Shown piece after piece: positions 10,995 to 58,834 of a stretch of 64,000 bases of DNA (position 1 is the first letter of the stretch; each line of letters opens with the position of its first letter). The position numbers and the translations under genes were made by a program. Origin of the DNA: Pegea sp. RAD2-039 (taxonomy: Eukaryota; Chordata; Thaliacea; Salpida; Salpidae). The DNA lies in contig JAQGEQ010000123.1 of assembly GCA_034620365.1 (NCBI GenBank), positions 305,024-369,023 on the forward strand, written 5' to 3'. A model generated the notes under the pieces. The model saw nothing but the letters and a program-made list of their open reading frames with translations, ran no database searches and was not told the origin of the DNA.

Positions 10995-13478
10995 ATGAAT
11001 TCAAAGTCAACAGGTTCTTCTAAGGAAGAAGAACCTGAATTAGATGAAGACTTAAGAGCATTTTTGGCTGAAACTGTAAGTCACTTTATATAATCTTTTC
11101 TTTCGTCAAATCTCAGAAGTTTTTGAAGAAAATAAAAAATTGTTAATTATTTTTTAAATAGTTATAAATGGCTCTTAACAGTCAATTTCAAAAAATAAAA
11201 TTGTAAGAAAATTTAATTTATTGAAAATTTTAGGACGAAGCTGCAGATTTTATTGAAGGAAGTTATCCTCATTGTATAGAAAACATAGTAAGTCCTCATT
11301 TTTGCTTAAGATCTTAAATATTGTTAAGAAAGTAAATGGTATAACTGCCTTAGATTTGATGTTTTTAAAAAGCTTACTAATATAAAAAACTCAAAATAAT
11401 TTAAAACTAACAAACAAATGTTTTGTCAATTCTTAGATAAAATCATTAGGAGGTCAAAGTACATCAAGCTTGTTTGAGATGGTAAGTTAAAAAGTTATAT
11501 AAAGACAACAAATTATCAATTGTTTTTTTTCAGGATATGCTGGTAATGAAAACATTGAATACTACTCTTATTTCATTTTTTATTCAAAAATTAAAGCCAA
11601 GATTAAGTAACATTATTGGTTGCAATTTCTTTTTTAAATTACTTTATTATGTTTAGTTCAAAATTAAAAATATACTTCACACCTGTAATTTTTATATTTA
11701 CATTTTTAATCCAATTTGTTTCTTTTTAAATGTAATTTCTATTTTTTGAGTGTTTAATTAAAAAATAAAAAATATTTAGAATAAAATAAATGTAGTATGA
11801 ACGTAGTAACAAGAAGTAGTAATCCATTTGGGTTTAAAATTACTTTTCTTTAGTCTCTAGAAGGTATTTCGACGGATGAAAACTTGGATCAGTGTGCAGT
11901 TGAAAAAAAGTCAAGAAAAAAAAGTAAAGATGAAACTCATTATTTTAGAGATAATTTTGTTACTAAGCCCAGCGGATCTGATTACAAAAAGAAACTTCAA
12001 AGTGATCAAACATTTAAGCAATGACTTATTGTATAAAACTCTTCAGGATTTTTACCAAAAGAATATAATATTGTTTTATTATTTTAGTTATTTAATTACT
12101 TTTTAAATAATTATTTTTTAGTTTTGAATTTTTTTGATAATCATTTTGGTTTTGATGAAGTGAAGGATATATCAATTGAAAATAATCCTATTAAGTAATT
12201 TGATAAAGATTCTTCAATTATGTAATTGTTTTATTTCAGCAGTTTGATGACGATTTGAACCTTCAGTTCTATGAAAATTCTTTTTCTACTAAAATTAAAA
12301 TTAAGTTTATTTTAGTATTGGAAAAACTAAAATTTGAAATTTCAGAGCTAAATGTTGGTAGTCATAAACCAATTTGGCAAGCAGCTGAAAGTTTCTATGA
12401 AAACTCATCAGGGTTTATTTCAAAAGATATAGCGCTTGGAAAACATGCATTCGCTGATAAAAATGAATACACAAACAAAACTAATACTAAAATTAATTCA
12501 TAAACTTGTTCTTTAAATATCTTAATTTTGAAATTAATCTTTTTCAGATATTCTACAGAAAGATGCTAAAAAAACCGGAGTTGTTAAAAAGTCTTCAAAT
12601 TCTAAAGGTAGAAATTGGAAATTTATTTCAAAAAGCAAAATTGATTTTGACTTTTAGGTAGAAAACTGAATGTTAAACTTGAAAAGATACTTTGGCAATC
12701 ATCTTCTGGATTTTTAACAAATGACTCAACTGTAAACTCACTTGGTGTTGATGAACAAAAAGAATCATCAAGCAAAAATAATTTCTCTAAAAGTAAATTT
12801 TCTAATTAATATTTGAAAGATTATTTGAAAAAGTAATTTTTTTACAGACAACGAAATTAAATATACAAAATATCCAAAATTTAACAAAAATTTAACAATT
12901 AGTAAAGGTAACATGTAGAAACTTTATTAGTAAATTTAGTAATGTAGCTATTTATTAGTGAGAAAGTAAAACTAGTTTTTAACTTTTATAGCAATAAAAC
13001 TGAGAGAAGAAAATACTGAAAAAATTGGACAAGGACCTGATTTTCCTTATGGAGAATCTTCGGCAAATTTGTCAAAAGATTTGTTGGTAGAACTTTGTGG
13101 ATTTGATGAAAAGATGAAGATATATAACGAACGTGAGTTTTCTAAAACTAATCTAAAAGTTGTTAACAAATTCTTGAAAAATTAATTGTTTTATTGTTAG
13201 AGCTGTAACTAAAGATACTAATGAGGTTGCATCTGCTTAAAAATTGTGAAATAATAAAGTTCAAAACCAAGTTGATTCACTGTTATAGTAAAGCTTTGAT
13301 TGTTACAGCGACTAAACTGAAGGAAGATAATGATATGGCTTGTCAGCAGGATGCTGGTTGTTCTTATGAAAAATCCTTGGAGCCTTTATCAAATAAAAAG
13401 GTTTTTAAGGAGAAAAAGGGGAAATGCAAGCGTAAGGCAAGAAAAACTAACAAATCAAACCAAACTAGAAAAAAATGA
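10995..13478 (+). pseudogene. Family copy A: decayed long-form gene
   Basis: Exons 1-4 are intact: 10995-11075, 11234-11287, 11437-11481 and 11534-11542, the last a 9-nt exon encoding DML. Exons 8-12 are also intact: 12548-12607, 12658-12792, 12848-12907, 12992-13132 and 13309-13478. The middle is broken. Exon 5 (from 11854) has lost 5 nt relative to B/I and hits TGA at 12022. The exon 5 donor GAAAGT has become GAAAAT, exon 6 (from 12240) has a second 5-nt loss, and the exon 7 (12346-12480) donor AAAAGTAAA has become AAAACTAAT. About 65 bp of extra A+T-rich DNA lies near 12065-12130. A weak alternative donor at 12002 in exon 5 would join exon 8 in frame and skip the damage, so a shortened product is conceivable. 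Polyadenylation signals AATAAA are at 13727 and 13764. The start is the ATG shared by all ten copies. Confidence 0.7.
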
Positions 13479-13800
13479 AAAATTTAAGACTATTTACGTT
13501 TTGGTACTGTTCAGAAATGAATCCATTTGATTTAAAGTAGCAAAACTTTTAGTCTCTTCTTTATAAAAAGATAATTCTATGTTGTAATAGAGAAATTTAA
13601 TTCACAAATCTCACTTTTTTCAGTTCTTTATTTTTTTGAGATTTACTGTTTCTACAAATTTCAAATTGAAATCTTGCAATATAAGTAATTTTTTCGTTCT
13701 CAAGAATTTCAAGCTCAAATAGAAACAATAAATTTACTACTTTTGTCTTTTATTATTTTTAGTAATAAACTTGTAAGTATTTTGGTAATTTTTTCTGGAA
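13479..13800 (+). other. Conserved 3' flank / 3'UTR, gene A
   Basis: The region after the stop is as conserved among family copies as the exons and more conserved than the introns. It includes TTACGTTTTGGTACTGTTCA, TAGTCTCTTCTTTA and TTTCAAATTGAAATCTTGCA. It ends near AATAAA signals at 13727-13732 and 13764-13769 followed by GT/T-rich DNA. It is probably a long 3'UTR. Homologous flanks follow every copy, but B and I lack the first AATAAA. Confidence 0.5.
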
Positions 13801-15850
13801 TGTTTTTTGTTAATGAATCTCAATCATTGCTCAGTTTTCAGAAAAACTGAAGAGATATTGTTAGTCTATCTAGCATATGGGGTAAATCTGTATTAAATTA
13901 CATTTGTCATTTATAAACAAATTTAAAAACGATGAATATACTTTGCACTGTGGTACATTGTTTACCAACTCATTCAATCATATCAATAGAGTTTTAAGAA
14001 GCTATTAATTCATTAGAACCAAGGGGTAGCAAAAAATTATTTTAAATCTGAGAGCTCTCTATTTTTTCTACAAAGTACTTGTACAAAATATACAAGTTTG
14101 TGAAATGTCCACTTTTTGTGATATTTTTCCAGATTATCAGTTTATTTTTGTTTCCCCTGTATTCACTTTTTTGTAAGCTTAGAAGTAAAGTTCCACTGAC
14201 TTTTTCTCTTGTTTGTTACAGATTGCAATATTCCAGCTTTCTCATTTTTATATACAACTCTTATACGGAACATTACGTAACATCATCACGTGACAGTTAA
14301 AAACTTTATCTTAAGTTTGTTATAGAGCTGTAGATTTAATATTAATGTGTTAAATTATTGATCTTAGAAAATATTAAGACTAAGAAAAATTAAAAGAACA
14401 TTGAAACGTGTTTTATTTAGAAATAATTTTAAACAAGTGTCGAGTTACTTAATAATTTGTGTTAACCACAGAAAATTTTGTTTTAATCTTTACTAGTTAT
14501 TCCTAAATTATTAATTAAAATAATTTATTTTGCATTAAGTTGTAATATTATTAATTATTTTATTATTAATTAGTGAAAGTGATGAAAATAGATAACTTGA
14601 GTTTTCTGATAATTGTTGCGACCATCTATCTTATTTAACTTATAACTTTCTTGCACGAATTTTTAAAAAGTAACTAAAACAGGACATAATTGAAGCTAAA
14701 ATTTTAAGATATAATGGTTTAAAAGAATAAGCAAAATCTAAAATTATTTGAGCAAAAGATGTCTCAAGGGGATTTCTTAAATTATTTCTATTCCTAACAC
14801 AAAGTTGAAGCAACCCATTTTTTTCGACATCAGAATACTGCCGTGTTTAAAAGTGACAACCTTATAAAAATGTTATTCCTTTTTTCAAAATTTAAGCAAT
14901 ATTTTTTTAAATTAAGGTTATAGGTCTTGTAGGTTTAAAATAAAAATGTCAGAACCTAGCTTAAGTGATTTTATTTAAGTGATTTATGTTACTGAATACA
15001 AATGAAATATAAATTAAGAACTTTGTCTCTTCCACATGATATACAATTATTTTTTAAATAATTTTTACATAAATCAAACGTGTACCTCCTATAGAGGCTT
15101 TGACTAAGACTTCATGAGCATTGGTAAAAAGAAGACATAAAAAAGGAATAATTTTTTGTTGAAAGTGTTTTATATATTAGAGCTGATTTCAGAAGTTTTA
15201 AAGAAGCACGGCTTACAGTTCTCACCCGTTCTTAAATAAGTTGCAATGATTTACTTTATAGGTTGGTTACTAAACAAAGAAAAAGTAAGTTTTTTAAACT
15301 CAAACGAAATATTTGTGTAATAAAAGGTTACAAATAAACTATATACTTTTATCATATACTGGCCTCTACTTAACCAATTATAGTGAAAAGCTACAAATTT
15401 TTGAAATTATTGTATCTTCACAAAGATAATAAATGTATAAGCTGATAATCTATAAAAATTTCAAACTATGTGGCTATCTTACAAACTTCTATATTTCTTA
15501 AAGGTATTTTATAATAACATAGAGAGATCTGAGATTTATAATCATTTTTAGCTACTACTTGGTTTTTATTTATATGATTTATTAGCTTTCTAAAACTCTA
15601 CTGATACACTTAAATGAGTTGAGAAGCATACTACCACAGTTTAAAGCATTTTCAGCGTTGGTAATAATGTTTATAAATGACTAAATGTAATTTGATACAG
15701 ATTTAACCTATATACTAGATGGAATAACAATATCTCTTCAGGTTATCTTAAAACTGAGTAATGAATGAGATTTAACACTAAAAAAATAACTAAACAAATT
15801 TCTTATAAAATAATCAAAATAATAACACTCACAGATTTCTATTAAAAATA
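13801..15850. other. Convergent spacer between genes A and B
   Basis: A and B point at each other here. The outer edges are 3'-flank sequence of each gene. The middle (about 14300-15500) is single-copy within the arm and recurs almost unchanged at 54.3-55.5 kb. A 73-codon frame at 14079-14300 is hydrophobic, A+T-driven and lacks coding signs. No gene is called. Confidence 0.5.
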
Positions 15851-16115
15851 TAAAACTAGCAGTAGCCGAGTAAATGTTTCAATTTGAGCTTAAAGTTTTT
15901 GATAACGAAAAAATTACTTATATTGCAAGATCTAAATTTGAAATTTGTAGCAACAGTTAATCTTAAAAAAATAAAGAACTAAACAGAATGAGATTTGTGA
16001 ATTAAATTTCTCTATTACAACACAAAATTATCTTTTTATAAAGAAGAGACTAAACGTTTTGCTACAAATGGGTTCATTTCTGAACAGTACCAAAACGTAA
16101 ATAGTCTTAAATTTT

Positions 16116-18579
16116 TTATTTTCTTCCAGTTTGCATTGATTTGTTGGTTTTTTTTGCCTTACGCTTGCATTTCCCCTTTTTTTCCTTAAAAACCATTTTA
16201 TTTGATGAAGGCTCCAAAGATTTTTCATAAGAACAACCAGCATCCTGCTTACAAGCCATATCATTACCTTCTTTCAGTTTCGTCGCTGTAAAAATCAAAG
16301 CTTTACTAAAACAGTTAATCAACTTTTTTTTTTAATTTATTAAAACTTTTTTTCAACAAACTATAAGAAAATCCAGCCTCATTAATATCTTCAGCTTTTA
16401 CAATAAAACAATTAAGTTTTCAAGAAATTTTTAACAATTTTTAGATTACTTCTAGAAAACTCACGTTCGTTAAATATCTTCATCTTTTCATCAAATCCAC
16501 AAAGCTCTGCCGACAAATCTTTTGACAAATTTCCCGAAGATTTTCCATACAGAAAATCAAGTCCTTGTCCAATTTTTTCAGCATTTTCTTCTCTCAGTTT
16601 TATCGCTAGAAAAGTTAAATACTAGTATTACTTAAACAGAAACAAACTTACCACATTTTACCTTTAGTAATAGTTAGTTTTTTGCTAGCTCTTGGATATT
16701 TTCTATATTTATTCTCGTTGTCTGTAAAAAAATTACGTTTACAAATAATCTTTCAAAAATTATATAGAAAATTTACTTTTAGAGAAATTATTTTTGCTTG
16801 ATGATTCTTTTTGTTCATCAAAACCAAGTGAAGTTACAGTTGAGTCGTTTGTTAAAATTCCAGAAGATGTAGGTCGAAGTGTCTCATCAAGTTTAACATT
16901 CAGTTTTCTGGCTATAAGTCCAAATTAAATTTGTTTTTTGAAATAAAATTCTCATTTTTACCTTTAGAATTTGAAGACTTTTCAACAACTCCGGTTTTCT
17001 TACCATCTTTCTGTAGAATATCTGAAAAAAATTATTTTTAAAATTAAGAAGTTAATAACAATTAGTTTATGAATTAATCTTAGTTTTACTTTTGTTTGTT
17101 GATTCATTTTTATCAGCAAATGCATCCTTTCCAAGCGCTTCATCTTTTGAAATAAACCCTGATGAGTTTTCATAGAAACTGTCAGCTGCTTGCCAAATTG
17201 GTTTATGATTACCAACATTTAGCTCTGAAATTTCAAATCTTAGTTTTGCTAATACTAAAATAAAGTTAATTATTTTTTTACTTTTAGAAGAATCTTCAAA
17301 GAACTGAAGTTTCAAATCCTCATCACTTGAAGCTGCTGAAATAAAACAATTACATAATTGAAGAATCTTCATTAAATTACTGAATAGGATTACTTTCACT
17401 TGATATATCCTTCACTCCATCAAAACCAAAATGATTATTGGTTAAATCTTTTGATAAGAATCCAGATGAGTTTTCATACAATAAGTCAGTAGTTTGCCAA
17501 AATGTATTATCACTTGGAAGTTTCTTTTTGTCATCAGATCCACTTGGTTTGTTAACCATATTTTCTCTAATTTTAGAAATTTCATCTTTATTAGGTTTTC
17601 TTGGCGTTTTTCCTTTTTTCACAGCAGGCTGATCCACGTTTTCATCCGTCAAAATATCTCCTAGCGACTAAATGAAATTTTAATTAAATAAATACTAAAT
17701 CTAAAATAACTACTGTTTATGTTTTAACTTTTTGCTAAATTTAATTTAAACAGTTCATATTTTTTAATTAAAGACTAAAAAAACTAAAAACAAACAAGCA
17801 ACAGAAATAAAAAGAAATAAATTGAATTAAAAATATGAGAATGAAAATGATAACTGTAAATTTTATTTTACATTTTGTAATCATTTATTTCCAAGTAATA
17901 TAAAAAAGATAATGCAACCAATAAAATTACTTAATCTTTTGTTTAGTTTTCAAGCTAAAGAAATAAAATAAGTAAAAATATAATAATAATAAAAATATAA
18001 TAATATTATTATTCATTGTTTTCATTACCAACATATCCTGAATAAAAACAATTGATAAGTTGCTGTTTTATTATAGCTTTTTAACTTACCATCTCAAGCA
18101 AGCTTGATGTACTTTGATCTCCTAATGATCTTATCTAATAATTGATGAAACATTTATTTGTTAGTTTTAGTTTATTTGGTGTCTCTTATATAATTTTGTT
18201 TTAAAACTTTCTTTAATCAAATCTAAGGCAGTTAAACATTTTACTTAATTAAAGAAATTTAATATATCAAGCAAAATGAAATCTTACTATGCTTTCTATA
18301 CAATTAGGATAACTCTCTTCTATAAAATTTGCCACTTCTTCCTGAAATTTCAAATAAATTAAAATTCTTAAAACATTATCTTTCGATATTAACTTGTAAA
18401 AGCCATTTATAAATGCTTAAAATCATTAAAAACTACTTTTTATTTTTTCGAAAACTTCTGTGGTGTGACGAAAGAAAAAAATATATAAAGTGACTTACAG
18501 TTTCAGCCAAAAAAGCTCTTAAGTCTGCATCTAATTCAGGTTCTTCTTCCTTGGAAGAACCTTTTGACTTTGGTTTCAT
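16116..18579 (-). CDS. Family copy B: intact 12-exon long form, 405 residues
   Basis: Exons in coding order are 18499-18579, 18288-18341, 18090-18134, 18029-18037 (9 nt), 17394-17667, 17282-17335, 17090-17224, 16962-17021, 16777-16911, 16662-16721, 16465-16605 and 16116-16285. All join in frame with GT-AG introns, some only about 57 nt long. Residues 1-27 are acidic (SSKEEEPELDADLRAFLAET). Exons 5, 7, 9 and 11 carry four copies of a module with cores ENSSGFLSKD, ENSSGFISKD, TSSGILTND and KSSGNLSKD. The two 60-nt exons alternate with the modules. The last exon gives QDAGCSYEKSLE and a Lys/Arg-rich tail, a possible nuclear localisation signal. No signal peptide or membrane segment is seen. It ends at TAA, whereas its mirror copy I uses TGA at the same codon. 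It differs from I by about three residues, all in exon 5. Family and function are not recognised. Confidence 0.8.
17973..18014. repeat. AATAAT/TATTAT simple tract inside gene B intron 4
   Basis: Short run of AATAAT and TATTAT units next to the 9-nt exon. The mirror copy is in gene I at 51811-51857. Confidence 0.7.
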
Positions 18580-18599
18580 TTTAAGTTGAAAAAAAACTT

Positions 18600-21500
18600 A
18601 GTGTATATCTGAAATTTTTTTACTGATTTTAGCTAAACTAAAACTAGTTAAAATACATTTAATAACTTTAACAAAGTTGTTTAATAAAACAACTGAAACT
18701 GAATAAAAGTATAGTACCACCAAAACGTGAACTGCTATATCTTTAATTATTAAACAAATAGTAGTAGCAAAAGTTAAACTTCTTTATCTTTTTGTGTTAA
18801 AAGAATTAAAACACTTTCTAAAAAAAGAATGTTGATTTTAGAATTTAATAAATTTAGTGAAAACTTTAATAATTCTAAAGGTTTTAAACGACTAAAATAA
18901 ATATATAAGTAGAAGCTATAACCGAATGTTTCTTCTTAAGAAATCATATTGCTATAAGCCTGGCCAAAGTATTAAAAACTACTTCAAAAAACGTATTCAC
19001 AAGAAACAAAAATCTGAAAATTGTTAAATCAAAATAAAACAAAATTAAGTGATAATCTAATACTAATTTGATCAAAAAAAAAATTTATTTAGTGAAACAT
19101 TTTAAACATTATTTGCAAAATCGACCTAAAAGTTTTTTAAAGTTCAGCTTTCTTACAAACTAATTTAAATTTACTCTTTTTGAATAGCCTTATCAGTAGA
19201 AATCATAATTCTATAATGGAACTTAAAACTTGTAGATATCATTAACTTAGTTTACTAAAATAATTATGTTATTACTTAATAAAACCAATAATATTTATGT
19301 TACGCAGAAGTTTTGTCTTCAGAATTGAAAATATTACTGCAGACCAATAATAAAAGCATATTTATATGATCGTTGAAAGGATATGTTTGATAACAACTAA
19401 AGTTTATATCGATCTTAATATTTAATTTTTTTCCAAAAAAATAAGAACTTATATAACTTTTATTACAAAATATGATCTAGAAAAGTTTTGTTAAATTTTT
19501 ATAACATTAAATTTGTTGCTTACAATTAGAACTTAAAAAATAGGTGTTCTCGAAGTTCAAGTTACTTCAGAATTCATACAAATGTAATATTTTATAAGAT
19601 ATCTTTAAAATAGAGAAAATTCTTTTAAAAGTATGAAAATATTGAGAATTACAGTTGGGAAACAAAGCACATCTCAGACTTTTTTAAACAAAAATCATTT
19701 CCAATTTAACAAAATATTTATGTAAACTTTAATAAAAATAAAGGTCTAAAATTCTTTAAAATTTAACTTTGACAAAAAATCACCAATAAAGTTTCATTTT
19801 GTTGTAAAGTTACACTGCAGTAGACTTTAAGGATAAGTCTGTAAACATCAAGCTAATAAACTTAATAAATTGTTTCAGAAAGTCAACAAAATTCAGTAAC
19901 AAAAGCTGACTAAAATGCCATGTATGACAAAATTAGAACTCAAATTACTAATAAATTGTTGAATAACTACAAGTTTAAATTTTAGACACTAATGAAATAA
20001 ATCTATTGATGGTTGAGTGCACAATTTAACAGTAAGCGTTGATTGATGAAAACAAAAACAACTGCTTTCTGGTTATTTTTTCTATAAAGAAAATCACAAA
20101 TTTAGAAACTTATAGAACCAAAAAAAAAACACAAAGCCTTAAATAAATAGAAAAAAATAAATAGATTTTGACTTAAAGGTAGATTCTTATATTATGGTAA
20201 AAGTGAAGATTCATTTTACGTCATACATAAAAGTGATTTAATTTAGTTCATATTATTACAACTTCTTTTTTATATACTAAAGTAATGTTATTCCATTTAC
20301 ATTGTCTGCGATTTTTAAACCATTAGATATCTTGCTCTATTAAAGAGTTATCTACATAACAAATTAATGAACAACAAATTGTCTAAAATCTTTGTCACAT
20401 TGCTGATAATTGATTATTTGAGCGATTATATTTCTTATTTAGTGATAAGAAAATTCGAGATTATCTTTTTTATTTAAATAATTCGATTGATGTTTTCTAC
20501 ATTTTAGTCAATGTTGTTGATAAGTGAGTTACTCTTAGGAGTCAGTTGAAAATGATACTAAAATAGTAGGTTTATTCTTTGAGATTTACAAACAAGAAAA
20601 GAGATCATTAGCAAAGCAATTTACAACTTTTTAAAAAGCAAGTTGATTGATTTTTGAATGGGATGAATTTAAGACTGGTTTTCATCAAAATTGTTGTCTA
20701 TTATTTTAATTTTAGCGATTAATACTGTCAAATATGAGTTTAAACAAAAAAAATTTGTTTCTGACTTAATTTCCTTATAAATAAAGTATTTCAATGTTAA
20801 ACTTTAATTTCACAAGAAAAATCAAATTAGTTTTAATGTTTTAGCGGTTTTAAATGGTCATAAGCAGATATAATATATTTGAATCTAATTTAACATAATT
20901 AGTTATTGATAAAGTGTCTATAGATTACTAGATGCAAAAGTTTAAAAGGAAATTCAACTGATAGCTAGATTTGCTTTTTCAATTTATGTTAAATAGTTTT
21001 TATAAAACAACTATAATTAAACAAGTTGATAAAAGACATTATTTCACTGTTGATTTAACCATGTAGCCACTTTTAAGAAAAAAATTTTGTGACAAATCTG
21101 ATCGAAAACAATTTTGAAGATGATTCTTTAAATGCATAGAGTGTTTTGGATTTTTATTTTGTTTTAAAAACGAAAGGATAGTAATTTATCATTACAAGCT
21201 TATTTTTATTTAAAAATACTCTGATAAATTAATGAGCTGCTTCTGCTTTAAAATGTTTTAAATAAAATAACAAATTTTCTTGTTTGAAACACATCTTAAC
21301 CTTTTACAACATTTTTAGAACATAATTTTTCAAAATTTATTTAAATGTATTAACTCTACTTATCGTTATAAAAAATTTTTCAACGGATTTTGTTTTAATC
21401 ATTGTAATAACTTTGTCTGATGAAACATTTTACTTTAAACAGAACGTAGGTTGTAGGTTTTTTTATATCAATTAAAACTCTGTATAAGAAGTAAAATGAA

Positions 21501-22944
21501 TTACTTTTTCCTCGGTTTTATGTAGTCATTTTGTAGAAACTTAACGTCTAATAGATTTCCAAAAGGGTTGTTACAACTGTTCTACTTGAACAGGAAGGTT
21601 ATTCTTACTTGAAGATAAAAACAATTAGTTCAAAACAATTTCGATGATATAATCTATTTTTCGAGAATATTGTTAATTTTCACAAAACCAAAATTATAAA
21701 AGTATTTTGATTGTAATTTAGCATTAAATTTTGAATATCTAAACTATACCAGTAGAAATATTATAATTAGAAATTAAAAAATTGCTTAAAAAGCAGTAAC
21801 ATATGTTATTATGTTGGAATTCTTCATCCTCTTCTCCCTTCACATTCATATTTGTTGCAAGATTTCTTGATGATTTAAAGTTGATGAATATAAAGATTTT
21901 CAGAATATTATAGTGATGTTTGTTTGTTGTTCAGTTTTATTTGATAAAAGTAAATTTAAGTTGACAAAAACTCCTTACATTTCTAATCAAGTTCCTTAAT
22001 TTTATAAATTTAGTGATTACAAAGTGCACCTGTAATAGCATAGAATTTAACATAAACAAAAAGTTACAAAGTCTTGACAACAGTTAAAATTGGATATAAT
22101 GACTTATAGAAACATCAAAAGGAAGTTAGCAGCTTGGTATAATTAAATTTAATTTATTAGCTTTTTATTATTTATATAATTTTTGTGGTTACATTCAAGT
22201 TCATTAACACTTTTTATAAACTAAAACTCGGTTTGAAACTTGTTCTTTTCAATCAAAGTTGAACAACTGTCTTCTGTCTTTAAAAAACTAAATTTTTTAG
22301 ACTAAAATAAATAAATATTTTGAATACATTCTTCAATGTAAACTTAATTTAAAATATTTTAATAAGGAATAAAGATAAACAAAATTATTTTTTTAGGAAA
22401 ATACTCCGTAACTCTATAAAAGGTTGGTTTTTCTCGGCATTAGCACTCGAACAAAAATTAATGGTCGTTTATAAAAATAGATCCATTTTAAAATGATAAG
22501 TTTTAGTATTGGTTAATATTATGTTAAACTAATATTTAAGCTGCTAATGCCAAATTTAGTTTAAATTTTAAAAATTCAAATGTTGTTCTTCATGACTAGT
22601 TGCAGACAGTATAACTTATGAAAGCTTAGTATATCTTCTAAATATAACCATAAGTTAATCCGACTCGATCTACGTTGTTAAATTGCTTTCCAAACTTTTC
22701 CAAGTTAAGAAAGGGAAAGAATTTTTTTGTTACAAAAGTTATTACAAGTAAATTCCAAAATTACATCTCTTAATAATTTTAGAAAATCGTTAAAGTTGTT
22801 TGATGAAATAAACACAAGATTTTTCAATAATGTTGCTACATTCACAGAAAAATATTATTATATTTTAAATTATCTAAAAAAACTCTTGAAAATGATTCAT
22901 ATTGTGTAATTAATATTCCTGATAATTTGTTTTCTATCAGAGTC
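18600..22944. other. Spacer upstream of gene B
   Basis: No gene is called. 18600-20500 resembles the 5' flank of gene A (10.98 down to 9.0 kb), including the GACAATTTGTTG/TTATCTACATAACAAAT block near 20.35 kb. From about 20.9 to 22.9 kb the DNA is shared with its mirror at 46.9-48.9 kb and, more distantly, with 2.3-5.7 kb. The LF(N/A)AIK block found upstream of the other copies is absent. Confidence 0.5.
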
Positions 22945-23551
22945 GTGTTTTATTTTTAATCAATAAGAATATGTTGTGGGTAGTCATTTGAATTAAATGT
23001 TTATTTGTTTTAGATATTCCATATAAAAGATTCTTAAAACTCTATTGATATGGTTGAATGAGTTGGTAAACAATGTACCACAGTGCAAAGTATATTCATC
23101 GTTTATAAATTTGTTTATAAATTACAAAATGTAATTTAATACAGATTTACCCCATATGCTAGATAGACTAACAATATCTCTTCAGTTTTTCTGAATACTG
23201 AGCAATGATTGAGATTCATTAACAAAAAACATTCCAGAAAAAATTACCAAAATACTTACAAGTTTATTACTAAAAATAATAAAAGACAAAAGTAGTAAAT
23301 TTATTGTTTCTATTTGAACTTGAAATTCCTGAGAACGAAATAATTACTTATATTGCAAGATTTCAATTTGAAATTTGTAGAAACAGTAAATCTCAAAAAA
23401 TAAAGAACTGAAAAAAGTGAAATCTGTAAATTAAATTTCTTAATTACAACATAAAATTATCTTTTTATAAAGAAGAGACTAAAAGTTTTGATACTATAAA
23501 TCAAATGGATTCATTTCTGAACAGTACCAAAACGTAAATAGTCTTAAATTT

Positions 23552-26497: not shown

Positions 26498-26509
26498 CTT
26501 GCTTGAGCG
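26498..26509 (-). other. Candidate 12-nt micro-exon, unit C
   Basis: CGCTCAAGCAAG with TTGTTTAAG before it and GTAAATGATT after it. It sits within the conserved stretch that contains CCCGAACGCC. Confidence 0.3.
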
Positions 26510-46830: not shown

Positions 46831-49800
46831 ACGACTCTGATAGAAAACAAATTATCAGGAATATTAATTACACAATATGAATCATTTTCAAGAGTTTATT
46901 TAGAAACTTTATTGCTCATAATATTTTTCTGTGAATGTAGCAACATTATTGAAAAATCTTGTGTTTATTTCATCAAACAACTTTAACGATTTTCTAAAAT
47001 TATTAAGAGATGTAATTTTGGAATTTACTTGTAATAACTTTTGTAACAAAAAAATTCTTTCCCTTTCTTAACTGGGAAAAGTTTGGAAAGCAATTTAACA
47101 ACGTAGATCGAGTCGAATTAACTTATGTTTATATTTAGAAGATATACTAAGCTTTCATAAGTTATACTGTCTGCAACTAGTCATGAAGAACAACATTTGA
47201 ATTTTTAAAATTTAAACTAAATTTGGCATTAGCAGCTTAAATTTTAGTTTAACATAATATTAACCAATACTAAAACTTATTATTTTAAAATGGACCTATT
47301 TTTATAAACGACCATTAATTTTTGTTCGAGTGCTAATGCCGAGAAAAACCAACCTTTTATAGAGTAACGTAGTATTTTCCTAAAAAGATAATTTTGTGTA
47401 TCTTTATTCCTTATTAAAAGATTTTAAATTAAGTTTACATTAAATAATGTATTCAAAATATTTATTGATTTTAGTCTAGAAAATTTAATTTTGTAAAGAC
47501 AGAAGACAGTTGTTTAACTTTGATTGAAAAGAACAAGTTTCAAACCGAGTTTTAGTTTATGAAAAGTGTTAATGAGCTTGAATGTAACCACAAAAATTAA
47601 ATAAATAATAAAAAGCTAATAAATTAAATTTAATTATACCAAGCTGCTTACTTCCTTTGCTGTTTCTATAAGTCATTATATCCAATTTTAACTGTTGTCA
47701 AGACTTTTTAACTTTTTGTTTATGTTAAATTTTATGCTATTACAGGCGCACTTTGTAATCACTATAAATATAAAAGTAAAGAACCTGATTAGAAATGTAA
47801 GGAGTTGGTGTCAACCTAAATCTACTTTTATCAAATAAAACTGAACAACAAACAAACATCACTATAATATTCTGAAAATCTTTATATTCATCAACTTTAA
47901 ATCATCAAGAAATCTTGCAACAAATATGATTTGGAGGGAGAAGATGAAGAAAGATTCCAAAGAATAACATAAGTTACTGCTTTTTAAGCAATTTTTTCTG
48001 CTGTAATTTATTACTTTTAAAGTATTTTTGTAATTTCTAAATATAATATTTCTACTGGTAAAGTTTAGATATTCAAAATTTAAAGCTAAATTACAATCAA
48101 AATACTTTTATAATTTTGATTTTGTGAAAGTTAACATTATTCTCGAAAAATAGATAATATCATCAAATCATAGAAGTTGTTATCTTTTGAATTATTTGTT
48201 TTTATCTTCAAGTAAGAATAACCTACCTGTTCAAGTTGAACAGTTGTAGCAACTCTATTGAAAATCTATTAGACGTTAAGTTTCTACAAAATGACTACAT
48301 AAAACCGAGGAAAAAGTAAATCATTTTACTTCTTATAAAGAATTCTAATTGATATAAAAATACCTACACCCTACGTTCTGTTTAAAGTAAAATGTTTCAT
48401 CAGACAAAGTTATTACAATGATTAAAACAAAATCCGTTGAAAAAATTTTTATAATGATAAGTAGAGTTAATACATTTTAAATAAATTTTGAAATATTATG
48501 TTCTAAAAATGTTGTAAGAGGTTAAGATGTGTTTCAAACAAGAAAATTTGTTATTCCTATTTAAAACATTTTAAAGCAGAAGCAGCTCATTAATTTATTA
48601 GAGTATTTTTAAATAAAAATAAGCTTGTAATAATAAATTACTATCTTTTCGTTTTTTCTACAAAATAATAATCCAAAACACTCTATGTATTTAAAGAATC
48701 ATCTTCAAAATTGTTTTCGAGATTTATCGCAAAATTTTTCCTTACAAGTAGCTACATGGTTAAATCAACAGTGAAATAATGTCTTTTATCAACTTGTTTA
48801 TTTATAGTTGTTTTATAAAAACTATTTAACATATATTGAAAAAGCAAATCTAGCTATCAGTTGAAATTGTTACTTTTAAACTTTTGCATCTAGTAATCTA
48901 TGGACACTTTATCAATAACTAATCATGTTAAATTAGATTCAAATATATTATATCTGCTGATGACCATTTAAAACTGCTAAAACATTAAAACTAATTTGAT
49001 TTTTCTTGTGAAATTAAAGTTTAACATTTGAAATACTTTATTTATAAAGAAATTAAGTCAGAAACAAATTTTTTTGTTTAAACTCATATTTGATAGTATT
49101 AATCGCTAAAATTAAAATAATAGACAACAATTTTGATGAAAACCAGTCTTAAATTCATACCATTCAAAAATCAATCAACTTGCTTTTTAAAAAGTTATAA
49201 ACTGCTTTGCTATTGATCTCTTTTCTTTTATGTAAATCTCAAAGAATAAACCTACTATTTTAGTATCATTTTCAACTGACTCCTAAGAATATCTCACTTA
49301 TCAACAACATTGACTAAAATATACAAAACATCAAATGATTTATTTAGATGAAAAAGATAATCTCGAATTTTTTTATCACTACATAAGAAATATAATTGCT
49401 TAAATAAACAATTATCAGCCATCTGACAAAGATTTTAGACAATTTATTGTCCAATAATTCGTTATTTTGATAACTCCTTAGTAGAGCAAGATATCTAATG
49501 GTTTTAATTTCGCAGACAAAGTAAATGAAATAACACTACTTTTTTATATAAAAAGGAAGTTGTAATAATATGTACTTAAATGAAATACATTTATGTATGA
49601 CGTAAAATGAATCTTCACTTTTACCATAATATAAGAATCTACCTTTAAGTCAAAATCTATTTACATTTTTCTATTTATTTAAGGCTTTGTGTTTTTTTTT
49701 TGTTTCGATTAGTTTCTAAATTTGTGAATTTCTTTATAGAAAACATAACCAGAAAGCAGTTGTTTTTGTTTTCATCAATCAACGCTTACTGTTAAATTGT

Positions 49801-51217
49801 GCACTCAACCAGCAATAGATTTATTTCATTAGTGTCTAAAATTTAAACTTGTAGTTGTTCAACAATTTATTAGTAATTTCAGTTTTAATTTTGTCATACA
49901 TGGCATTAGAGTCAGCTTTTTTTTACTGAATTTTGTTGACTTTCTGAAATAATTTATTAAGTTTATTAGCTTGATGTTTACAGACAGATCCTTAAAGTCT
50001 ACTGCAGTGTAACTTTACAACGAAATGAAACTTTATTGGTGATTTTTTGTCAAAGTTAAATTTTGAAGAATTTTAGACCATTATTTTTATCAAAGTTTAC
50101 ATAAATGTTTTGTTAAATTGGAAATGACTTTTATTTAAAAAAGTCTTAACTGTGCTTTGTTTCCTAACTGTAATTCTCAATATTTTCATACTCTTAAAAG
50201 AACTGGAATTTTCTCTATTTTAATGATATCTTATAAAATATTACATTTGTATGAATTCTGAAGAAACTTGAACATCGAGAACACCTATTTTTAATGTTCT
50301 AATTGTATCTACAAATTTAATGTTATAAAAATTTAACAAAACTTTTCTAGATCATATTTTGTAATAAAAGTTATATAAGTTCTTATTTTTTTGGAAAAAA
50401 ATTAAATATTAAGATCGATATAAACTTTAGTTGTTATCAAACATATCCATTCAACGATCATATAAATATGCTTTTATTATTGGTCTGCAGTAATATTTTC
50501 AATTCTGAAGACAAAACTTCTGCGTAACATAAATATTATTGGTTTTATTAAGTAATAACATAATTATTTTAGTAAACTAAGTTAATGATATCTACAAGTT
50601 TTAAGTTCCATTATAGAATTATGATTTCTACTGATAAGGCTTGTCAAAAAGAGTAAATTTAAATTAGTTTGTAAGAAAGCTGAACTTTAAAAAACTTTTA
50701 GGTCGATTTTGCAAATAATGTTTAAAATGTTTCACAAAATAAATTTTTTTTTGATCAAATTAGTTTTAGATTATCACTTAATTTTATTTTATTTTGATTT
50801 AACAATTTTCAGATTTTTGTTTATTGTGAATAGGTTTTTTGAAGTAGTTTTTAATACTTTGGCCAGGCTTATAGCAATATGATTTCTTAAGAAGAAACAT
50901 TCGGTTATAGCTTCTACTTATATATTTATTTTAGTCGTTTAAAACCTTTAGAATTATTAAAGTTTTCACTAAATTTATTAAATTCTAAAATCAACATTCT
51001 TTTTTTAGAAAGTGTTTTAATTCTTTTTAACACAAAAAGATAAAGAAGTTTAACTTTTGCTACTACTATTTGTTTAATAATTAAAGACATAGCAGTTCAC
51101 GTTTTGGTGGTACTATACTTTTATTCAGTTTCAGTTGTTTTATTAAACAACTTTGTTAAAGTTATTAAATGTATTTTAACTAGTTTTAGTTTAGCTAAAA
51201 TCAGTAAAAAAATTTCA
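46831..51217. other. Spacer upstream of gene I
   Basis: Mirror of 18600-22944. No gene is called. It contains the TATA-like block at 49370-49630 and, at 46.9-48.3 kb, the sequence whose old copies flank the 3721-4215 gene. Confidence 0.5.
49370..49630 (+). promoter_or_regulatory. Conserved 5'-flank block with TATA-like box, gene I
   Basis: This is the counterpart of 9000-9260, with TATATAAAAAGG at 49545-49556. The B mirror lies near 20.2-20.46 kb and the J mirror near 60.57-60.83 kb. In B the TATA-like site has changed to TATATAAAAAGA. Confidence 0.3.
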
Positions 51218-51247
51218 GATATACACTAAGTTTTTTTTCAACTTAAA

Positions 51248-53714
51248 ATGAAACCAAAGTCAAAAGGTTCTTCCAAGGAAGAAGAACCTGAATTAGATGC
51301 AGACTTAAGAGCTTTTTTGGCTGAAACTGTAAGTCACTTTATATATTTTTTTCTTTCGTCACACCACAGAAGTTTTCGAAAAAATAAAAAGTAGTTTTTA
51401 ATGATTTTAAGCATTTATAAATGGCTCTTACAAGTTAATATCGAAAGATAATGTTTTAAGAATTTTAATTTATTTGAAATTTCAGGAAGAAGTGGCAAAT
51501 TTTATAGAAGAGAGTTATCCTAATTGTATAGAAAGCATAGTAAGATTTCATTTTGCTTGATATATTAAATTTCTTTAATTAAGTAAAATGTTTAACTGCC
51601 TTAGATTTGATTAAAGAAAGTTTTAAAACAAAATTATATAAGAGACACCAAATAAACTAAAACTAACAAACAAATGTTTCGTCAATTATTAGATAAGATC
51701 ATTAGGAGATCAAAGTACATCAAGCTTGCTTGAGATGGTAAGTTAAAAAGCTATAATAAAACAGCAACTTATCAATTGTTTTTATTCAGGATATGTTGGT
51801 AATGAAAACAATGAATAATAATATTATTATATTTTTATTATTATTATATTTTTACTTATTTTATTTCTTTAGCTTGAAAACTAAACAAAAGATTAAGTAA
51901 TTTTATTGGTTGCATTATCTTTTCTATATTACTTGGAAATAAATGATTACAAAATGTAAAATATAATTTACAGTTATCATTTTCATTCTCATATTTTTAA
52001 CTCAATTTATTTCTTTATATTTCTATTGCGTGTTTGTTTTTAGTTTTTTTTAGTCTTTAATTAAAAAATATGAACTGTTTAAATTAAATTTAGCAAAAAG
52101 TTAAAACATAAAGAGTAGTTATTTTAGATTTAGTATTTATTTTTTAATTAAAATTTTATTTAGTCGCTAGGAGATATTTTGACGGATGAAAACGTGGATC
52201 AGCCTGCTGAGAAAAAAGGAAAAACGCCAAGAAAACCTAATAAAGATGAAACTTCTAAAATTAGAGAAAATAGTGTTAACAAACCAAGTGGATCTGATGA
52301 CAAAAAGAAACTTCCAAGTGATAATACATTTTGGCAAACTACTGACTTATTGTATGAAAACTCATCTGGATTCTTATCAAAAGATTTAACCAATAATCAT
52401 TTTGGTTTTGATGGAGTGAAGGATATATCAAGTGAAAGTAATCCTATTCAGTAATTTAATGAAGATTCTTCAATTATGTAATTGTTTTATTTCAGCAGCT
52501 TCAAGTGATGAGGATTTGAAACTTCAGTTCTTTGAAGATTCTTCTAAAAGTAAAAAAATAATTAACTTTATTTTAGTATTAGCAAAACTAAGATTTGAAA
52601 TTTCAGAGCTAAATGTTGGTAATCATAAACCAATTTGGCAAGCAGCTGACAGTTTCTATGAAAACTCATCAGGGTTTATTTCAAAAGATGAAGCGCTTGG
52701 AAAGGATGCATTTGCTGATAAAAATGAATCAACAAACAAAAGTAAAACTAAGATTAATTCATAAACTAATTGTTATTAACTTCTTAATTTTAAAAATAAT
52801 TTTTTTCAGATATTCTACAGAAAGATGGTAAGAAAACCGGAGTTGTTGAAAAGTCTTCAAATTCTAAAGGTAAAAATGAGAATTTTATTTCAAAAAACAA
52901 ATTTAATTTGGACTTATAGCCAGAAAACTGAATGTTAAACTTGATGAGACACTTCGACCTACATCTTCTGGAATTTTAACAAACGACTCAACTGTAACTT
53001 CACTTGGTTTTGATGAACAAAAAGAATCATCAAGCAAAAATAATTTCTCTAAAAGTAAATTTTCTATATAATTTTTGAAAGATTATTTGTAAAGTAATTT
53101 TTTTACAGACAACGAGAATAAATATAGAAAATATCCAAGAGCTAGCAAAAAACTAACTATTACTAAAGGTAAAATGTGGTAAGTTTGTTTCTGTTTAAGT
53201 AATACTAGTATTTAACTTTTCTAGCGATAAAACTGAGAGAAGAAAATGCTGAAAAAATTGGACAAGGACTTGATTTTCTGTATGGAAAATCTTCGGGAAA
53301 TTTGTCAAAAGATTTGTCGGCAGAGCTTTGTGGATTTGATGAAAAGATGAAGATATTTAACGAACGTGAGTTTTCTAGAAGTAATCTAAAAGTTGTTAAA
53401 AATTTCTTGAAAATTTAATTGTTTTATTGTAAAAGCTGAAGATATTAATGAGGCTGGATTTTCTTATAGTTTGTTGAAAAAAAGTTTTAATAAATTAAAA
53501 AAAATAGTTGATTAACTGTTTTAGTAAAGCTTTGATTGTTACAGCAACGAAACTGAAAGAAGGTAATGATATGGCTTGTAAGCAGGATGCTGGTTGTTCT
53601 TATGAAAAATCTTTGGAGCCTTCATCAAATAAAATGGTTTTTAAGGAAAAAAAGGGGAAATGCAAGCGTAAGGCAAAAAAAACCAACAAATCAATGCAAA
53701 CTGGAAGAAAATGA
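51248..53714 (+). CDS. Family copy I: intact 12-exon long form, 405 residues
   Basis: Exons are 51248-51328, 51486-51539, 51693-51737, 51790-51798 (9 nt, DML), 52164-52437, 52496-52549, 52607-52741, 52810-52869, 52920-53054, 53109-53168, 53225-53365 and 53545-53714. The coding total is 1218 nt with no internal stop. The exon 6-7 junction is supported because it gives KLNVGNHKPIWQAAD, matching RKLNVKLDET at the start of the exon 9 module. Exons 8 and 10 are both 60 nt, exons 7 and 9 both 135 nt. This is a regular duplication of a linker-plus-module pair. Trp-Gln before the module core occurs in exons 5 and 7. The start follows a CAG acceptor at 51218 by 29 nt. Cysteines in PNCIE and DAGCSYEK are shared with most copies. 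The tail KGKCKRKAKKTNK is strongly basic. No known family is recognised. Acting in the nucleus is inference from composition only. Confidence 0.82.
51811..51857. repeat. AATAAT/TATTAT simple tract inside gene I intron 4
   Basis: Mirror of 17973-18014. Confidence 0.7.
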
Positions 53715-54049
53715 AAAATTTAAGACTATTTACGTTTTGGTACTGTTCAGAAATGAACCCATTTGTAGCAAAACGTTTAGTCTCTTCTTTATAAAAAGAT
53801 AATTTTGTGTTGTAATAGAGAAATTTAATTCACAAATCTCATTCTGTTTAGTTCTTTATTTTTTTAAGATTAACTGTTGCTACAAATTTCAAATTTAGAT
53901 CTTGCAATATAAGTAATTTTTTCGTTATCAAAAACTTTAAGCTCAAATTGAAACAGTTACTCGGCTACTGCTAGTTTTATATTTTTAATAGAAATCTGTG
54001 AGTGTTATTATTTTGATTATTTTATAAGAAATTTGTTTAGTTATTTTTT

Positions 54050-55850
54050 TAGTGTTAAATCTCATTCATTACTCAGTTTTAAGAGAACCTGAAGAGATAT
54101 TGTTATTCCATCTAGTATATAGGTTAAATCTGTATCAAATTACATTTAGTCATTTATAAACATTATTACCAACGCTAAAAATGCTTTAAACTGTGGTAGT
54201 ATGCTTCCCAACTCATTTAAGTGTATCAGTAGAGTTTTAGAAAGCTAATAAATCATATAAATAAAAACCAAGTAGTAGCTAAAAATGATTATAAATCTCA
54301 GATCTCTCTATGTTATTATAAAATACCTTTAAGAAATATAGAAGTTTGTAAGATAGCCACATAGTTTGAAATTTTTATAGATTATCAGCTATACATTTAT
54401 TATCTTTGTGAAGATACAATAATTTCAAAAATTTGTAGCTTTTCACTATAATTGGTTAAGTAGAGGCCAGTATATGATAAAAGTATATAGTTTATTTGTA
54501 ACCTTTTATTACTCAAATATTTCGTTTGAGTTTAAAAAACTTACTTTTTCTTTGTTTAGTAACCAACCTATAAAGTAAATCATTGCAACTTATTTAAGAA
54601 CGGGTGAGAACTGTAAGCCGTGCTTCTTTAAAACTTCTGAAATCAGCTCTAATATATAAAACACTTTCAACAAAAAATTATTCCTTTTTTATGTCTTCTT
54701 TTTACCAATGCTCATGAAGTCTTAGTCAAAGCCTCTATAGGAGGTACACGTTTGATTTATGTACATTATTTAAAAAATAATTGTATAGCATGTGGAAGAG
54801 ACAAAGTTCTTAATTTATATTTCATTTGTATTCAGTAACATAAATCACTTAAATAAAATCACTTAAGCTAGGTTCTGACATTTTTATTTTAAACCTACAA
54901 GACCTATAACCTTAATTTAAAAAAATATTGCTTAAATTTTGAAAAAAGGAATAACATTTTTATAAGGTTGTCACTTTTAAACACGGCAGTATTCTGATGT
55001 CGAAAAAAATGGGTTGCTTCAACTTTGTGTTAGGAATAGAAATAATTTAAGAAATCCCCTTGAGACATCTTTTGCTCAAATAAATTTAGATTTTGCTTAT
55101 TCTTTTAAACCATTATATCTTAAAATTTTAGCTTCAATTATGTCCTGTTTTAGTTACTTTTTAAAAATTCGTGCAAGAAAGTTATAAGTTAAATAAGATA
55201 GATGGTCGCAACAATTATCAGAAAACTCAAGTTATCTATTTTCATCACTTTCACTAATTAATAATAAAATAATTAATAATATTACAACTTAATGCAAAAT
55301 AAATTATTTTAATTAATAATTTAGGAATAACTAGTAAAGATTAAAACAAAATTTTCTGTGGTTAACACAAATTATTAAGTAACTCGACACTTGTTTAAAA
55401 TTATTTCTAAATAAAACACGTTTCAATGTTCTTTTAATTTTTCTTAGTCTTAATATTTTCTAAGATCAATAATTTAACACATTAATATTAAATCTACAGC
55501 TCTATAACAAACTTAAGATAAAGTTTTTAACTGTCACGTGATGATGTTACGTAATGTTCCGTATAAGAGTTGTATATAAAAATGAGAAAGCTGGAATATT
55601 GCAATCTGTAACAAACAAGAGAAAAAGTCAGTGGAACTTTACTTCTAAGCTTACAAAAAAGTGAATACAGGGGAAACAAAAATAAGCTGATAATCTGGAA
55701 AAATATCACAAAAAGTGGACATTTCACAAACTTGTATATTTTGTACAAGTACTTTGTAGAAAAAATAGAGAGCTCTCAGATTTAAAATAATTTTTTGCTA
55801 CCCCTTGGTTCTAATGAATTAATAGCTTCTTAAAACTCTATTGATATGAT
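54050..55850. other. Convergent spacer between genes I and J
   Basis: Nearly exact inverse of 13801-15850. No gene is called. Small differences include one base in the stretch near 54770 (GTACATTATTT against the mirror TTACATAAA region). Confidence 0.5.
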
Positions 55851-56349
55851 TGAATGAGTTGGTAAACAATGTACCACAGTGCAAAGTATATTCATCGTTT
55901 TTAAATTTGTTTATAAATGACAAAATGTAATTTAATACAGATTTACCCCATATGCTAGATAGACTAACAATATCTCTTCAGTTTTTCTGAAAACTGAGCA
56001 ATGATTGAGATTCATTAACAAAAAACATTCCAGAAAAAATTACCAAAATACTTACAAGTTGATTACTAAAAATAATAAAAGACAAAAGTAGTAAATTTAT
56101 TGTTTCTATTTGAGCTTGAAATTCTTGAGAACGAAAAAATTACTTATATTGCAAGATTTCAATTTGAAATTTGTAGAAACAGTAAATCTCAAAAAAATAA
56201 AGAACTGAAAAAAGTGAGATTTGTGAATTAAATTTCTCTATTACAACATAGAATTATCTTTTTATAAAGAAGAGACTAAAAGTTTTGCTACTTTAAATCA
56301 AATGGATTCATTTCTGAACAGTACCAAAACGTAAATAGTCTTAAATTTT

Positions 56350-58834
56350 TCATTTTTTTCTAGTTTGGTTTGATTTGTTAGTTTTTCTTGCCTTACGCTT
56401 GCATTTCCCCTTTTTCTCCTTAAAAACCTTTTTATTTGATAAAGGCTCCAAGGATTTTTCATAAGAACAACCAGCATCCTGCTGACAAGCCATATCATTA
56501 TCTTCCTTCAGTTTAGTCGCTGTAACAATCAAAGCTTTACTATAACAGTGAATCAACTTGGTTTTGAACTTTATTATTTCACAATTTTTAAGCAGATGCA
56601 ACCTCATTAGTATCTTTAGTTACAGCTCTAACAATAAAACAATTAATTTTTCAAGAATTTGTTAACAACTTTTAGATTAGTTTTAGAAAACTCACGTTCG
56701 TTATATATCTTCATCTTTTCATCAAATCCACAAAGTTCTACCAACAAATCTTTTGACAAATTTGCCGAAGATTCTCCATAAGGAAAATCAGGTCCTTGTC
56801 CAATTTTTTCAGTATTTTCTTCTCTCAGTTTTATTGCTATAAAAGTTAAAAACTAGTTTTACTTTCTCACTAATAAATAGCTACATTACTAAATTTACTA
56901 ATAAAGTTTCTACATGTTACCTTTACTAATTGTTAAATTTTTGTTAAATTTTGGATATTTTGTATATTTAATTTCGTTGTCTGTAAAAAAATTACTTTTT
57001 CAAATAATCTTTCAAATATTAATTAGAAAATTTACTTTTAGAGAAATTATTTTTGCTTGATGATTCTTTTTGTTCATCAACACCAAGTGAGTTTACAGTT
57101 GAGTCATTTGTTAAAAATCCAGAAGATGATTGCCAAAGTATCTTTTCAAGTTTAACATTCAGTTTTCTACCTAAAAGTCAAAATCAATTTTGCTTTTTGA
57201 AATAAATTTCCAATTTCTACCTTTAGAATTTGAAGACTTTTTAACAACTCCGGTTTTTTTAGCATCTTTCTGTAGAATATCTGAAAAAGATTAATTTCAA
57301 AATTAAGATATTTATAAAACAAGTTTATGAATTAATTTTAGTATTAGTTTTGTTTGTGTATTCATTTTTATCAGCGAATGCATGTTTTCCAAGCGCTATA
57401 TCTTTTGAAATAAACCCTGATGAGTTTTCATAGAAACTTTCAGCTGCTTGCCAAATTGGTTTATGACTACCAACATTTAGCTCTGAAATTTCAAATTTTA
57501 GTTTTTCCAATACTAAAATAAACTTAATTTTAATTTTAGTAGAAAAAGAATTTTCATAGAACTGAAGGTTCAAATCGTCATCAAACTGCTGAAATAAAAC
57601 AATTACATAATTGAAGAATCTTTATCAAATTACTTAATAGGATTATTTTCAATTGATATATCCTTCACTTCATCAAAACCAAAATGATTATCAAAAAAAT
57701 TCAAAACTAAAAAATAATTATTTAAAAAGTAATTAAATAACTAAAATAATAAAATAATATTATATTCTTTTGGTAAAAATCCTGAAGAGTTTTATACAAT
57801 AAGTCATTGCTTAAATGTTTGATCACTTTGAAGTTTCTTTTTGTAATCAGATCCGCTGGGCTTAGTAACAAAATTATCTCTAAAATAATGAGTTTCATCA
57901 TTACTTTTTTTTCTTGACTTTTTTTCAACTGCACACTGATCCAAGTTTTCATCCGTCGAAATACCTTCTAGAGACTAAAGAAAAGTAATTTTAAACCCAA
58001 ATGGATTACTACTTCTTGTTACTACGTTCATACTACATTTATTTTATTCTAAATATTTTTTATTTTTTAATTAAACACTCAAAAAATAGAAATTACATTT
58101 AAAAAGAAACAAATTGGATTAAAAATGTAAATATAAAAATTACAGGTGTGAAGTATATTTTTAATTTTGAACTAAACATAATAAAGTAATTTAAAAAAGA
58201 AATTGCAACCAATAATGTTACTTAATCTTGGCTTTAATTTTTGAATAAAAAATGAAATAAGAGTAGTATTCAATGTTTTCATTACCAGCATATCCTGAAA
58301 AAAAACAATTGATAATTTGTTGTCTTTATATAACTTTTTAACTTACCATCTCAAACAAGCTTGATGTACTTTGACCTCCTAATGATTTTATCTAAGAATT
58401 GACAAAACATTTGTTTGTTAGTTTTAAATTATTTTGAGTTTTTTATATTAGTAAGCTTTTTAAAAACATCAAATCTAAGGCAGTTATACCATTTACTTTC
58501 TTAACAATATTTAAGATCTTAAGCAAAAATGAGGACTTACTATGTTTTCTATACAATGAGGATAACTTCCTTCAATAAAATCTGCAGCTTCGTCCTAAAA
58601 TTTTCAATAAATTAAATTTTCTTACAAAATTTATTTTTTGAAATTGACTGTTAAGAGCCATTTATAACTATTTAAAAAATAATTAACAATTTTTTATTTT
58701 CTTCAAAAACTTCTGAGATTTGACGAAAGAAAAGATTATATAAAGTGACTTACAGTTTCAGCCAAAAATGCTCTTAAGTCTTCATCTAATTCAGGTTCTT
58801 CTTCCTTAGAAGAACCTGTTGACTTTGAATTCAT
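56350..58834 (-). pseudogene. Family copy J: decayed long-form gene, mirror of A
   Basis: Exon 1 is 58754-58834, exon 2 58541-58594, exon 11 56696-56836 and exon 12 56350-56519. The others mirror those of A. It shares every visible lesion with A: the stop inside exon 5, the lost donors after exons 5 and 7, and the 5-nt losses in exons 5 and 6. So the damage either came before the inverted duplication or was copied between arms. At least one missense difference from A remains in exon 5 (in SKD-type Lys-rich sequence, AAAG against ATGAT context). AATAAA (minus strand) near 56097 matches the conserved signal of A. Confidence 0.7.

Follow-up and report, generated by a model that had tools for sequence, protein, structure and literature searches.

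A ten-copy gene family with a 9-nucleotide micro-exon on the arms of a probable palindrome in the salp Pegea

Introduction

It is for the sex chromosomes of vertebrates that palindromes with amplified gene families have been described most fully, and the genes mirrored there are under unusual evolutionary pressure. A 64,000-nucleotide (nt) stretch of DNA from Pegea sp. RAD2-039 (Chordata; Thaliacea; Salpidae), referred to here as the window, raises the question of whether a gene family of a small invertebrate genome is arranged in this way, and if so, what it encodes and what keeps its copies alike. The window is the end of contig C122 (window position 64000 corresponds to C122:369023). An initial annotation had proposed a ten-copy gene family with symmetric exons, one of which is only 9 nt long; the mirrored arrangement of the copies in five pairs was absent from that reading. 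Our preferred explanation, to which we give an even chance, is that an ampliconic, probably nuclear family of charged proteins occupies a large palindrome in an animal genome of low GC content and is kept alike by palindromic gene conversion.

Results

Ten gene copies are mirrored on two long arms

Comparison of the window with itself using blastn gave rise to one inverted repeat covering positions 5829–64000. It consists of two self-matches, 5829–32642 against 64000–37127 (26.9 kb, 97%) and 32637–34245 against 36419–34805 (1.6 kb, 93.7%). The locus thus combines a long inverted repeat, highly similar arms, a short spacer and copies of one gene family, the features by which an ampliconic palindrome is recognized (Table 1).

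The ten genes (A to J, in window order) form the mirror pairs A-J, B-I, C-H, D-G and E-F, five genes per arm. Each arm contains A and B (or their mirrors J and I) and an inner tandem triplet with a unit spacing of approximately 4.33–4.34 kb; the E unit is shorter, with approximately 0.7 kb missing together with exons 2–4. An ATG and the first exon are present at all ten of the start positions that had been proposed, five on the plus strand (10995, 36282, 40619, 44954 and 51248) and five on the minus strand (18579, 24822, 29156, 32774 and 58834). A and B face each other in the left arm, as do I and J in the right arm.

A second contig favours a genuine palindrome

The window end coincides with the contig end, and artificial palindromes arising from scaffolding are known (PMC7953838 and PMC5916493, in the available portions of both papers). 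The palindrome could accordingly be an assembly artefact, in which the assembly fused two haplotypes, or two separate duplicated loci, head to head; the haploid genome would then hold approximately five copies. A second contig, C190 (51.7 kb), bears on this alternative. C190 overlaps the right arm yet was left unmerged, and differs from it beyond approximately 2.5 kb, as the artefact would predict. It matches the end of the right arm at 98.8% and the left arm, including its outer part, at 95.4%, the latter match ending at window position -900.

A three-way alignment of the left arm, the right arm and C190 comprises 7,457 ungapped columns, 7,334 of them identical; the left arm alone differs in 60, C190 alone in 42 and the right arm alone in 21. 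Over the first 2,000 columns, on the contig-end side, C190 and the right arm show no substitutions and the left arm alone differs in 58, and therefore C190 most likely continues the right arm. Farther in, the arms are almost the same and C190 is more often the odd one out, behaving as an allele would.

Past the arm, C190 carries different sequence, including an mTOR gene. One exon of this gene reaches 103 bits with mTOR entries, which we take to be mammalian, and 77 bits with TOR2, which we take to be from yeast, and so looks metazoan. Compared with those 60 kb of the left flank of C122 (approximately 305 kb in all) that lie closest to the arm, the C190 flank shows only 0.4 kb at 66% and short pieces by the arm end. 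A 5.5-kb part of the C190 flank has no near-identical place elsewhere in the genome, the best match being 78% on C32. At their outer ends, over 6.9 kb, the two arms agree to 92.3%.

Several of these observations speak against a joining artefact. The deletion of approximately 0.7 kb that separates E from F and the difference between the arms at approximately 2.7% of aligned sites mean that a fold-back would not be one molecule read twice. At the overlap, C190 sides with the right arm rather than the left. Since C190 is free of substitutions over the last approximately 2 kb of the right arm and leads into a different flank, a fold-back artefact seems unlikely. Haplotypes of a single locus would be expected to have common flanks, whereas the C190 flank has little more than the pieces noted above in common with the nearest 60 kb on the left, a point that bears on the two-haplotype version only. 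We regard a head-to-head joining of either kind as fairly unlikely, and these alignments are best read as those of a real palindrome, each arm approximately 35–36 kb long and adjoined by a flank of its own.

The outer part of both arms also contains a 188-residue open frame (window 3721–4287, minus strand; near position 9021 in C190), for which no Pfam match over the cut-off was found.

Divergence between the arms is uneven

Of the 29,239 columns in the arm-to-arm alignment, 771 are mismatches and 865 contain gaps, the mismatches being unevenly spread. The approximately 10 kb around A and B (8819–18810) contain 46 mismatches (0.46%), and the approximately 15.4 kb at 18811–34245 contain 658 (approximately 4%). 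Farther out, 58 fall in 5829–7820 and 9 in 7821–8818. This unevenness suggests patchy gene conversion from arm to arm.

The 5' blocks of the copies, compared pairwise among all but E, differ by 0.3% in the mirror pair A-J and by 1.3% in B-I. In the triplets, divergence is lower between the arm-mates C-D (2.3%) and F-G (3.0%) than within the mirror pairs C-H (4.7%) and D-G (5.0%). Because arm divergence is uneven and C-D and F-G are closer than their mirror pairs, the pattern may reflect exchange between tandem units as well as from arm to arm.

The copies share a series of frame-preserving exons

B and I each have 12 exons (81, 54, 45, 9, 274, 54, 135, 60, 135, 60, 141 and 170 nt) and encode 405 amino acids; C, D, F and G have six (81, 54, 45, 9, 160 and 170 nt) and encode 172. 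H has the same six exons except that an early stop shortens the last to 155 nt (167 amino acids). The splice models built for this analysis reproduced both of the protein lengths given by the initial annotation. In B, I, C, F and G all exons are open and bordered by GT-AG. The middle of B and I consists of a two-exon unit in phase 1, its small exons 54 or 60 nt and its large ones 135 or 141 nt, and of the seven introns that follow exon 5 in B, six measure 50–68 nt.

The proposed phase-0 series of 81, 54, 45 and 9 nt was recovered in nine of the ten copies, and E is without exactly the 54-, 45- and 9-nt exons. The latter three are in phase 0, and by their lengths single exons can be dropped without a frame shift, as can the phase-1 exons of the middle. 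In E, whose DNA is without exons 2–4, exon 1 continues in frame into exon 5, and the product would have 136 amino acids.

All nine copies that keep the 9-nt exon border it with AG and GTAATG, as had been claimed. The two forms of this exon described earlier became three: GATATGCTG in A, H and J, GATATGATG in C, D, F and G, and GATATGTTG in B and I. The ten genes are unequal, a point absent from the initial annotation: A, J, D and H are degraded, and the last exon of H is the 155-nt form.

Exons 1–4 vary less than introns among the copies compared

Conservation around the micro-exon was measured in a window of 33 nt (the 9 nt and 12 nt on each side) in copies A, B, C, D, F, G and H. Among these seven copies 4 of the 33 columns vary, a level reached by none of 645 overlapping intron-only windows (mean 17.2, minimum 5). 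Exons 1–4 taken together differ less than introns in A-B (Fisher test, 2.5e-6), A-H (4.2e-12) and B-H (3.0e-5), tests that are not independent because the copies are related. Against a distant locus, K (described below), exons are hardly less different than introns (A-K, 0.038; B-K, 0.10).

For the last exon, the ratio of nonsynonymous to synonymous substitution rates (dN/dS) is 0.28–0.52 in all six pairs for which it was calculated; these pairs overlap in the copies that they contain. For exons 1–4, dN/dS exceeds 1 in A-C, A-G and A-H; these values rest on 0.5–2 synonymous changes, too short a stretch to judge.

One further related locus and no known domain

Loci of the family were found only on C122, C190 and C58 in the 105.7-Mb genome, by searches that scored the best candidates only and that short or distant exons may escape. 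Locus K, on C58, is the single further related locus. It has parts resembling exons 1, 2, 3 and 5, the frame of exon 1 appearing disturbed, and its middle repeats a two-exon unit like that of the window copies, with at least 8 small and at least 9 large exons, two of the large ones broken. K is without the micro-exon: at its place TTTTATAG is followed directly by GTAAAA, in an alignment that is ambiguous there. At this spot (C58, L015 4650–4710) an acceptor directly abuts a donor, like a zero-length exon.

No Pfam family exceeded the cut-off for B or G; the best sub-threshold hits were COMM_HN for G (E-value 0.0046, 17.9 bits, cut-off 23) and ICAP-1_inte_bdg for B (E-value 0.068, 13.6 bits, cut-off 25). 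The 405-residue protein of B, the one compared with the PDB, had no sequence match at E-values up to 1, and no match at gathering score was found among 4227 Rfam families. The earlier view of a family with symmetric exons and a micro-exon but no known domain is therefore borne out by the reproduced gene models and by Pfam (B and G) and PDB (B) searches without a match above threshold. Among the matches listed from the literature on micro-exon genes, on palindromes with amplified genes and on rotifer palindromes, the family is not described, which is no proof of absence.

A transposon or viral origin was considered and rejected: exon 5 of B, the only exon queried, has no relative in viral contigs (seven pattern stretches, none confirmed), and the Pfam searches point the same way.

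The proteins are charged and lack signal-peptide-like segments

The predicted proteins are acidic at one end and basic at the other, the net charge of the first 75 and last 50 residues being -18 and +12 in F and -13 and +10 in B. Simple hydropathy gave no signal-peptide-like or membrane-like stretch; within the first 30 residues of B and F, the mean hydropathy of any 8 consecutive residues is 0.98 at most. The micro-exon residues of F lie between SLFEM and SMDDILTDEN, in an acidic stretch with bulky hydrophobic residues that presumably resembles acidic activation domains. The idea of an activation domain is weak. The products may be small, mostly disordered nuclear proteins, possibly transcription- or chromatin-binding germ-line factors; together with the proposed cause of the amplification (see Discussion), this assignment is the weakest step of the explanation.

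The N-terminus also bears on a relationship to the micro-exon gene (MEG) families of flatworms, which encode secreted, variable proteins. The Pegea genes resemble schistosome MEGs in their very short exon, in several exons with lengths in multiples of three, in their variable middle and in a fast-evolving exon 5. They differ in that they have no hydrophobic N-terminus, whereas MEG proteins carry a signal peptide (PMC10526429, in the text available), and in having a single micro-exon: of the 6 or 12 exons one only is 9 nt and the others are 45–274 nt, compared with the 10–20 very short exons that the same partial text gives for MEGs (PMC10526429). The comparison is one of features and not of MEG protein sequences. 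On signal peptide and exon structure we reject a flatworm MEG identity, which we consider barely credible; the initial annotation had likewise set the family apart from secreted MEG proteins.

Table 1. Positions of the palindrome arms and gene copies in the window
Feature	Position	Strand	Description
Left arm	5829..34245	+	blastn self-match; extends leftward past 5829 to approximately window -900 (C122:304124), according to the C190 alignment
Spacer	34246..34804		approximately 560 bp between arms; partly further sequence of the left tandem unit
Right arm	34805..64000	-	leaves the contig end; C190 carries on to approximately C190:14380
Copy A	10995..12024	+	exons 10995-11075, 11234-11287, 11437-11481, 11534-11542 (micro-exon), 11854-12024; exon remnants downstream to approximately 13480
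Copy B	16116..18579	-	12 exons, 405 amino acids; micro-exon 18037-18029
Copy C	23552..24822	-	6 exons, 172 amino acids; micro-exon 24299-24291
Copy D	27886..29156	-	6 exons, 172 amino acids if exon 2 is used; micro-exon 28633-28625
Copy E	32214..32774	-	exons 32774-32694, 32624-32465, 32383-32214; 136 amino acids
Copy F	36282..37555	+	6 exons, 172 amino acids; micro-exon 36808-36816
Copy G	40619..41892	+	6 exons, 172 amino acids; micro-exon 41145-41153
Copy H	44954..46209	+	6 exons, 167 amino acids; micro-exon 45476-45484
Copy I	51248..53714	+	12 exons, 405 amino acids; micro-exon 51790-51798; mirror of B
Copy J	57804..58834	-	five exons, 119 amino acids; micro-exon 58294-58286; mirror of A

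Ribosomal sequences and marker searches elsewhere in the assembly

On C278 (10214–14683), five matches with 0–2 mismatches to a conserved stretch of 18S lie approximately 0.8–1.7 kb apart and suggest broken ribosomal copies in tandem. On C1 (L029 60–1110), approximately 1 kb of ATCATCAACAAAATT-type repeat stands ahead of a ribosomal unit and seems to cut its 18S. A site of the mlh3 gene of the rotifer Brachionus manjavacas and an mmr-b primer each had 0 matches when up to 3 mismatches were allowed. COX1 was without a match, and so were the arthropod cuticle (PF00379) and nematode cuticle collagen (PF01484) families, the latter two results carrying little weight because the control genomes were equally silent.

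Discussion

In the explanation that we prefer, patchy gene conversion from arm to arm and from unit to unit would keep the copies alike. Exon skipping would yield protein variants, and the micro-exon would add or remove Asp-Met-Leu/Met inside the acidic, hydrophobic-rich N-terminal half; purifying selection would keep the basic C-terminus. Amplification may have come about for dosage or by genetic conflict, as in ampliconic sex-chromosome genes, which belongs with the nuclear assignment to the weakest step of the explanation.

A number of observations weigh against this explanation. Haplotype switching in the assembly could likewise give uneven divergence between the arms, and H is not nearer to its arm-mates (5.9% from F, 4.8% from G) than to its mirror C (4.7%). 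A and C are 91.4% alike over 712 nt overall, yet differ in 37 of 165 coding sites of the last exon. Of the copies themselves, A and J have a premature stop in exon 5, after 119 amino acids; A, the copy of the two that was inspected further, has lost the donors of exons 5–7, its exons 7–12 remaining open frames; D has TG, not AG, ahead of exon 2; and H is damaged by the early stop in its last exon. For exon 5, six of the seven pairs have a dN approximately equal to or greater than dS (A-B, 0.79), and the differences are spread almost evenly over codon positions; exon 5 evidently evolves fast, and relaxed constraint also fits. Exons 1–4 alone give no clear dN/dS (0.45–0.64 in pairs with B). As for the activation domain, its composition score was reached by 4 of 1000 shuffles of F and by 160 of 1000 of B.

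Sequence following A's last exon (13480–14007) resembles sequence of C (23024–23552) more than the coding parts of their last exons do, as if exchanged. Since A and C are more alike after the last exon than in it, exchange of stretches blurs the reading of constraint.

The damage in A, J, D, H and E, the lack of constraint in exon 5, and the genes that face each other (A-B in the left arm, I-J in the right) would all be expected if the copies were mostly decaying non-coding duplicates and the inverted array itself mattered, perhaps by giving rise to double-stranded or small RNA. Such decay would not readily account for the five copies (B, I, C, F and G) in which every exon is open and has GT-AG borders, for exons 1–4 and a micro-exon that are more conserved than introns, or for the low dN/dS of the last exon, and we consider it rather improbable. 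A coding function of the intact copies is likely on the strength of these sequence comparisons.

A more elaborate scenario would have lineage-specific charged nuclear proteins captured in a self-converting palindrome through genetic conflict (drive or suppression), with a micro-exon tunable by splicing that was born at a ratchet-like splice site, where K has its zero-length exon. We regard this scenario as a long shot.

Read as a converting palindrome, the locus invites comparison with the palindromes of sex chromosomes, such as the human Y. Both have a multi-copy family mirrored on long arms and a divergence that fits conversion tracts of kilobases; for the human P6 palindrome, the available part of one study gives inferred minimum conversion tracts of up to 9,023 bp (PMC3723533). 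The arms differ in being approximately 92–99.9% alike, depending on the stretch, whereas those of sex chromosomes exceed 99.9%. The Pegea family, unlike the ampliconic families of sex chromosomes, matches none known in Pfam or PDB.

Among invertebrates, palindromes of Adineta vaga and Folsomia candida likewise consist of large inverted gene blocks in an assembly (PMC7953838, in the portion available), and the accessible text of two papers reports palindromes in parthenogenetic animals (PMC7953838, PMC5916493). The A. vaga palindromes are mirrored blocks of homologous genes, the reality of which has been questioned as a possible scaffolding error (PMC5916493, in part). The locus described here differs from them in the amplification of a single family and in having unlike flanks on its two sides.

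As a clear case from a small invertebrate genome, if it proves to be one, that combines a family without known domains with exons that are safe for the reading frame, the locus would be a compact system in which to study palindromic gene conversion together with micro-exon evolution. It also illustrates how such genes can escape automatic annotation.

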